64,000 nt of DNA from a bacterium (GTDB lineage: Bacteria > CAIWAD01), in the NCBI GenBank assembly GCA_030685015.1, contig JAUXWS010000046.1, positions 11,683 to 75,682 on the forward strand, read 5' to 3'. This document shows, one piece after another, positions 10,272 to 16,478 of the stretch (positions are counted from its first letter, which is position 1; the number at the start of each line of letters is the position of its first letter). The notes beneath the pieces are model-generated. The model was not told the DNA's origin and made no database searches. It saw only the letters and a list, made by a program, of their open reading frames with translations. The position numbers and the translations under genes are program-made.

Positions 10272-10376
10272 GTCGCGACGCGTGACGAGGCCGAAAAGAG
10301 GACCCTGGGGCAAACCCCCATCCCGACCTTCCCCTGGCAGGGGGAAGGAGTTCGCCCGCGGTGAAGCCGAAGGCTG
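10272..10376 (+). repeat. Intergenic direct repeat, copy 2
   Basis: Second copy of the unit at 9994-10098, offset 278 bases. It has the same inner hairpin with one C fewer (CTTCCCC). Its end is 60 bases from the stop of the minus-strand gene ending at 10436. Confidence 0.85.
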
Positions 10377-10435
10377 CGGAAGTCAGGGCCGACAGGGGCG
10401 AAGAAGACCGCGAGGCGGCCAAAGTCGACCGGCTG

Positions 10436-10744
10436 CTAACCGAAGAGCTTGTTGGAGAGCGGGTAGCGCCAGACGATCCACAGGTAGGCCAGGTGGTAGA
10501 AGGGCCAGAGCACGTTGTAGCATAGCAGTTCCACCAGCACGCCCAGGCGATGGCTCCCCGTGCGCAGCTCCACCCATTCGTGGAGGGCCAGGCCGGGCAG
10601 CATCCAGCCGGGGAAGAGGTCGGCGATCCAGATCTCGTCCGCGGCCTCCCCGCCGGCCGCCGCGGCCAGGCCCGGCGCGCCGGAGGCGGGCACGCCGTAG
10701 CAATGGAAGCGGTAGGGGTTCCAGGCGAAGACTTTGACGACCAT
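10436..10744 (-). CDS. Small hypothetical protein with hydrophobic C-terminal segments
   Basis: About 102 residues if started at ATG 10744 (MVVKVFAWNPYRFHCYG). No family recognised. The middle reads EIWIADLFPGWMLPGLALHEW. The C-terminal third is strongly hydrophobic and aromatic (LVELLCYNVLWPFYHLAYLW), consistent with one or two membrane segments. The start is uncertain: AGG lies only 2 bases before this ATG, and a further in-frame ATG near 10800 has no better site. It is divergent from the NtrC-type gene and followed by the repeat region. Compositional bias and a membrane-like pattern support a real gene. Confidence 0.55.
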   Translation of the reverse strand: MVVKVFAWNPYRFHCYGVPASGAPGLAAAAGGEAADEIWIADLFPGWMLPGLALHEWVELRTGSHRLGVLVELLCYNVLWPFYHLAYLWIVWRYPLSNKLFG

Positions 10745-15104: not shown

Positions 15105-16478
15105 ATGCTTTCCTGCCGAATGATGGCTGGCCTGACGGTTCTGGGTCTGCGCGGCGTCGCAGCCCTGGAGGCGCCGCTGGTGGAGGTCCGGGTCGTCGGC
15201 GTCGGCGACAGCCTTCACGTCCAGTTGAATTGGGATCCTGTGCCCGGAGCCACCTCTTATCGAGTGCTGGGTCGCGCGGATTGGCTGGACGCAGCCGCGC
15301 AGGTGGCCCTGGTGGACAGCTGCGGCGTCGATCTGGTCTGGCCAGGCCCGGTGGGCCTCTTCACGGAGAGGGCGGAATCAGCCCTGCCGGAGATGGTGCA
15401 GGTCCCGGCCGGCACCTTTGTGATGGGCAGCGGGGCCTATGGCAATCTCTTCCACCAGGCGACCCTGACGCACGACTATTGGCTGGCCCGCACGGAAACC
15501 ACCAACGCCGAATTCCTTGATGCGCTGAACTGGGCCTGGGGACAGGGCGGGCTGGCCATCGGCTACGACATTTCCACAGACATGGACTGGGTGCTGCTGG
15601 GCAGCATGCCGCTGCTGCCGGTGGCGCGCGCCGCCACCCATGACGATCTGGTGATCATCTACGACGCGGAGGCCGGCCACTTCATCCTGCACGCCGGCAC
15701 CCTCAACACCAACATCCGAGGCCCCGGCTTCGCCTATCCCGACGGTTACGATCCCGCCCAGCACCCCGTCAAGTATGTCACCTGGATGGGCGCCGCCGCC
15801 TAATGCGACTGGCTCAGCCTGCGCAGCGGGCTGCCCACCCACTACAACAACGAGTTCTACCACGACCCCACCGTGCACAATCCCTACACGGCCCAGGGCT
15901 GGCGCCTGCCCACCGAGGCGGAATGGGAGCGGGCAGCGAGCTTTGGCGATCAGCGCATTTACCCCTGGGGCAACGAGACGCCGAGCTGCGAGCGGGTCAA
16001 CTACCGCCACCTCGGCTACTGCGTCGGATGGACCGAGGCGGTGGGATCGCATCCGCTGGGCACCAGCGCGCTAGCAGCCCGTCGGACTTGGCCACTTGGC
16101 GGTCTTCATCGCCCCAATCGGCCCGGATCTTCCGCAATTTTCTTGAACAGACCACCAGTATGCCCTGCGAAAATTCCGAAAAACCGGCCTCGATTTGGGC
16201 GCGAATCCCATCCAAGGCCCAAGCCCGACAGGCTGCTGGGCTTCCAGGATCTGGGCGGCAATGTGATGGAGTGGTGCAACGATTACGTGGAACTCCTCAG
16301 TTCGGAAGCCCCGGTGACGGATCCCATGGGCCCATCCCGCACGGACTACCGCGCGCTGCGCAATGGCCACTGGTACAGCTTCAGCAACGCCCACATGCGC
16401 GGCTCGTGGCGCGCCCAATCCTCGCCAACCCACGGCTATGACAATGCGGGCTTCCGCGTCTGCCGCACGGTCCAGTAG
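15105..16478 (+). pseudogene. Formylglycine-generating-enzyme-like (SUMF1/FGE-sulfatase domain) exported protein, disrupted
   Basis: One reading frame broken by a TAA at 15801-15803. Before it come an N-terminal export-like segment, a fibronectin-III-like region (VQLNWDPVPGATSYRV) and the first part of the FGE fold (MVQVPAGTFVMGSG, ARTETTNAEFLDAL, HPVKYVTWMGAAA). After it, in the same frame, comes CDWLSLRSGLPTHYN, then GWRLPTEAEWERAA, DLGGNVMEWCND and GFRVCRTVQ. The family has Tyr exactly where the stop is (AAYCDW), so one base change explains it. A 165-base palindromic insertion (16073-16237) sits between TSAL and GFQDLGGN and is itself frame-preserving. Family members modify sulfatases or act as surface proteins. 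Readthrough or a sequencing error are the alternatives to a true pseudogene. Confidence 0.85.
16073..16237. mobile_element. 165-bp palindromic MITE-like insertion inside the FGE-like gene
   Basis: The ends are inverted repeats AGCAGCCCGTCGG (16073-16085) and CCGACAGGCTGCT (16225-16237), matching at 12 of 13 positions. The interior is also imperfectly palindromic: the stretch at about 16107-16143 aligns with the reverse complement of about 16168-16207, leaving a loop near 16144-16167. Removing exactly these 165 bases rejoins GCG-CT with GGGCTTC to read A-L-G-F, the expected FGE sequence, so the boundaries are well fixed. A 2-base CT flank on both sides may be a target duplication. It has no coding capacity for a transposase. 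The length is a multiple of three and the frame stays open. Confidence 0.75.

Follow-up and report, generated by a model that had tools for sequence, protein, structure and literature searches.

A frame-neutral palindromic insertion in an FGE-like gene is very probably an IS1182-type MITE

What is the palindromic segment that lies in frame within an FGE-like gene of the 64,000-nucleotide stretch of bacterial DNA analysed here (the window), and how did it come to be there? A preliminary description had reported a 165-bp segment with inverted ends, a self-complementary interior and an open frame, all of which are present, and had likened it to the palindromic elements of Rickettsia (RPEs) or to a MITE. 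Our sequence comparisons suggest that the segment is very probably an IS1182-type MITE mobilised in trans by a CTAG-targeting IS1182 transposase. The features of the locus are as follows.

15105–16478, + strand: FGE-sulfatase-domain host gene (PF03781), interrupted by a TAA at 15801–15803 and by the putative MITE.
16075–16235, + strand: putative 161-bp IS1182-type MITE, an imperfect full-length palindrome, recognised from copies sharing boundaries, fold and covariation.
16075–16091, + strand: left terminal inverted repeat CAGCCCGTCGGACTTGG, matching the right end and IS1182-family ends.
16219–16235, − strand: right terminal inverted repeat, CAGCCTGTCGGGCTTGG on the − strand, identified by comparison of the ends.
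16071–16074, no strand: left 4-bp target duplication, CTAG, which borders most copies.
16236–16239, no strand: right 4-bp target duplication, CTGG, with one mismatch to the left; removal of 165 bp restores the family reading.

As the preliminary description had predicted, removal of 165 bp gives A-L-G-F in the host gene. The FGE homologues of related genomes read SYLGFQDMAGN, TAQGLQDMGGN and SSLGLFDIAGN at this site, with no insert, and FGE-domain homologues in three genomes (G001, G003 and G004) align through the insertion point without the 55 residues; the segment is thus not conserved in related FGE genes. The insert is in frame, but the gene is not the intact coding gene first supposed: a separate in-frame TAA at 15801–15803 replaces a Tyr that all the homologues share, reflecting either a pseudogene or an error in the draft sequence. 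Because this TAA is independent of the insertion, preservation of the frame in this gene is uninformative on function.

The mobile unit common to the copies described below runs from CAGCC to GGCTG over 161 bp and has terminal repeats of ~17 bp (CAGCCYGTCGGRCTTGG), which refines the 13-base inverted ends originally noted. We read the flanking tetranucleotides, CTAG on the left and CTGG on the right, as a target duplication outside the element; the 161-bp unit and one 4-bp copy together make up the net insertion of 165 bp (55 codons). We also considered CTAG as part of the element; this was rejected because 165 bp, and not 169 bp, must be removed to restore the frames of the FGE gene and of two further ORFs, in L010 and L016.

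A 4-bp duplication was likewise detected across the copies. Identical 4-mers stood on both sides of 17 of 47 copies, compared with 10.5 when the sides were shuffled (p = 0.005); three of these 17 pairs were non-CTAG, a subset that is not significant alone (p = 0.21). CTAG is scarce in the window, with seen and expected counts of 7 and 182 (from base composition), yet it borders most copies. The 4-mers differ between the two sides in many copies, including that in the window; the variants then common, CCAG and CTGG, differ from CTAG by a single transition. Very-short-patch repair makes changes of the CTAG to CCAG/CTGG type, and two homologues of Vsr are encoded in the genome (L183 and L186). 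Decay of CTAG after insertion is therefore a plausible cause of the CTAG/CTGG mismatch in the window. A 4-bp palindromic target, GGCC, has been reported for ISPsy36, an IS1182 element (PMC8027508).

The segment is far from unique, and the possibility that it has no other copies is refuted. The same genome holds dozens of copies altogether, ~20 of them 95–99% identical and others down to ~70% identical or partial, and the terminal motif gave 118 matches compared with 6 in a reversed control. Two congeners had 14 and 3 copies listed, and the element was absent from 57 more distant genomes. No exact match to its 21-base end was found in viral contigs, and a blastn search of plasmids with a 169-bp query found no match. 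Among the searched genomes the interior sequence appears specific to the genus, where the copies would constitute a new IS1182-type MITE family.

Several copies have unusual surroundings. Four contigs of the draft assembly (C28, C29, C32 and C35) end within element copies, and the window contains a degenerate fragment (10375–10437, − strand) that is 81% identical to element positions 1–64. Three copies (L011 2057–2221, L014 2068–2232 and L079 34–198) adjoin a further CTAGCAGCCTGTCGG end, as though the CTAG of a pre-existing element end had served as their target. At L032 (2016–3731), an IS1380-family IS splits a copy and is accompanied by a short (5–6 bp) duplication of element sequence. A pair of ends 1.7 kb apart on C28 was considered as an autonomous element and rejected, as it is an IS1380-family IS within a copy.

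The window copy folds into a long hairpin with an energy of −77.7 kcal/mol, compared with −60.0 ± 4.1 kcal/mol for shuffled sequences (z = −4.3; 0 of 200 as low). The identity of its arms beyond the terminal repeat is 0.50 (shuffled mean 0.31, maximum 0.43). Across 40 distinct copies, 91.5% of the stem cells pair. Double-change cells in the stem numbered 101, whereas shuffles gave 35 ± 5 and slid controls never exceeded 28; kinship of the copies inflates the comparison with shuffles but is retained in the slid controls, and the structure was itself derived from one of the sequences compared. The aligned copies, a set chosen by length, measure 159–164 bp even if strongly diverged, and variants of 182–224 bp are also present.

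Co-varying stem pairs would also fit a domesticated RNA or DNA element (a terminator, processing site or small RNA) that the host retains for the sake of its hairpin, and so would the many copies at gene ends, 11 of 40 coinciding exactly with the TAG stop of a probable gene. However, this placement fits CTAG targeting, from which it would follow, because 2 of the 7 CTAGs in the window are themselves at likely stop codons. Compensatory change also fits selection for transposition or self-correction of the palindrome, Rfam gave no match within the window, and copy number differs sharply between congeners. We consider domestication very unlikely, and the IS1182-type MITE the better reading of the hairpin.

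Does the element persist because it encodes a tolerated peptide? Five copies, in more than one orientation, form in-frame open insertions: the window copy and those in a 1010-aa beta-helix ORF (L010), a 462-aa ORF (L016), a 554-aa ORF in genome G002 (L121) and a 190-aa ORF (L024). Young copies are mostly open in ~4 of the 6 frames, a level reached by 33 of 5000 mononucleotide shuffles. Both observations suit a protein-coding palindrome of the RPE type, under selection as a 55-residue peptide insert that proteins tolerate. However, 161 plus 4 makes 165, which is divisible by three, so length alone makes every insert frame-neutral and five open cases out of five are not improbable; selection for coding is therefore not established. 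Furthermore, the window gene contains a nonsense codon that is independent of the insert, and the majority of copies lie between genes or at stop codons. The likeness to RPEs drawn in the preliminary description thus holds for the in-frame, open state of the in-gene copies but not for location, and the preferential in-frame position within ORFs that marks RPEs is not seen here. Selection as a peptide insert is, in our estimate, highly improbable, and the IS1182-type MITE again remains the preferred explanation.

The ends of the element point to its likely mobiliser. Ends of the form (CTAG)CAGCCTGTCGGRCTT flank IS1182 transposase genes in ~14 elements from several phyla, and an exact scan for AGCAGCCTGTCGGACTTGGCC returned 58 loci in Marinobacterium, Burkholderiales, Nitrospinae, Opitutae and others. 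In L057, an IS1182-family transposase (NF033551, 317 bits) lies between two matching ends that are 1.6 kb apart; here and in L078 the IS1182 transposase genes have these ends, with CTAG outside, at either side, and so do those in L156, L159 and L161. Tepidiphilus, an Opitutae MAG and Marinobacterium harbour complete elements with these ends. Among 13 plasmid relatives of the L057 transposase, the motif was present at both ends in 10 (including ISAzo2), at one end in 2 and at neither in 1; CTAGGAG replaces CTAGCAG in the Methylobacter and Persicobacter plasmid elements. In four complete IS1182 elements that were tested, the arms were not complementary past the terminal repeat, and the MITE interior resembled no IS found.

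An autonomous transposase with the same ends, as envisaged at the outset, is thus found in other genomes but not in the element's own. The sole IS1182-family transposase of the window genome (C43) is 26% identical to the L057 protein and has no such ends, and the draft assembly contains no IS1182 element with ends CTAGCAGCCTGTCGGRCTTGG. MITE status does not require an autonomous partner, and partners can be lost. L113 (589–1989) carries an intact 466-aa IS1182-family transposase ORF without CTAGCAGCC ends, next to flagellar-looking genes.

The genome also has five RAYT-like Y1_Tnp genes (L050–L054), and the element forms a hairpin over its full length, as would suit a REP/REPIN-like palindrome spread by RAYT, a Y1-type transposase acting on hairpin DNA without target duplication. 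Against this, the end motif does not flank the Y1_Tnp genes, bar one match with 4 mismatches; the element ends match IS1182, a DDE family; a 4-bp duplication is present; and the outer motif is CTAG rather than the GTAG/CGTC tags of REPs. With none of the five genes flanked by element ends, a RAYT/REPIN origin was rejected and seems to us scarcely credible.

The segment is short, lacks a transposase gene and has terminal inverted repeats and many copies, as a MITE does. Its assignment to the IS1182 type, which bears out the MITE alternative raised initially, is directly supported by dispersed copies, insert-free homologues, the 4-bp duplication and target preference, and ends identical to those of IS1182 elements elsewhere. 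In the mechanism that we propose, an IS1182-family (DDE) transposase supplied from elsewhere would recognise the ~17-bp ends (CAGCCYGTCGGRCTT) and move the element, which has no gene of its own; mobilisation in trans and the cut-and-join chemistry are thus inferred steps. Insertion at palindromic targets resembling CTAG, with a stagger of 4 bp, would leave a 4-bp duplication and add 165 bp (55 codons) net. We infer the mobilising partner rather than see it, because C43, the only IS1182-family gene in the genome, lacks the ends; the partner IS would have been lost from the genome or lie outside the draft assembly. Read in this manner, the element represents a further high-copy family of IS1182-type MITEs, from a lineage that has been sparsely sampled; the comparison shows one and the same IS1182 end with a CTAG border in several phyla and provides clean examples of an insert of 55 codons that leaves the frame unchanged.

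How does the element compare with known systems? IS1182-family IS such as ISAzo2 (L141) have the same CAGCCTGTCGGRCTT ends bordered by CTAG, but they are ~1.6 kb long and carry a transposase gene, which the MITE does not. REPs and REPINs with RAYT are likewise dispersed palindromes, whereas the window element is longer, has another end tag and a 4-bp duplication, and shows no RAYT linkage. RPEs, compared by description, are likewise ~150-bp palindromes able to sit in frame within ORFs; they are reported mostly in ORFs, in Rickettsia, whereas the window element lies mostly outside genes (PMC10969869). The resemblance would be one of effect, and the element does not appear to be an RPE.

The closest published counterpart discussed here is MITEPye1 of Paracoccus yeei, an IS1182-type MITE of 159 bp with 4-bp direct repeats and IS1182-type terminal inverted repeats (PMC11578231). 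Compared by description, both are non-autonomous, ~160 bp long, with IS1182-type repeats, 4-bp direct repeats and a long stem-loop; MITEPye1 has a low copy number (1–3 per chromosome) and is intergenic, whereas the window element has dozens of copies, some in genes. The suggestion of an undescribed element of this lineage accordingly holds for the interior, found only in the genus, but not for its kind, which MITEPye1 had already exemplified.

A separate family in Marinobacterium and Oceanisphaera (L060, L067, L083 and other loci) has the same ends, a length of 161 bp and a full hairpin with a weak covariation signal. Its interior, like that of other carriers of the ends, showed no detectable homology to the window family by identity against shuffles or by nhmmer. 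Burkholderiales forms with the same ends are ~212 bp long and are not full hairpins. The shared 160–161-bp form may reflect either convergence or old common descent. It is conceivable, though on balance rather unlikely, that IS1182-type MITEs in unrelated hosts independently reached a self-complementary hairpin of ~160–161 bp kept by compensatory changes, with hairpin and length being part of movement and the 165-bp net insert frame-neutral. The occurrence of this hairpin in unrelated hosts would make any role that it has in IS1182 transposition directly testable.
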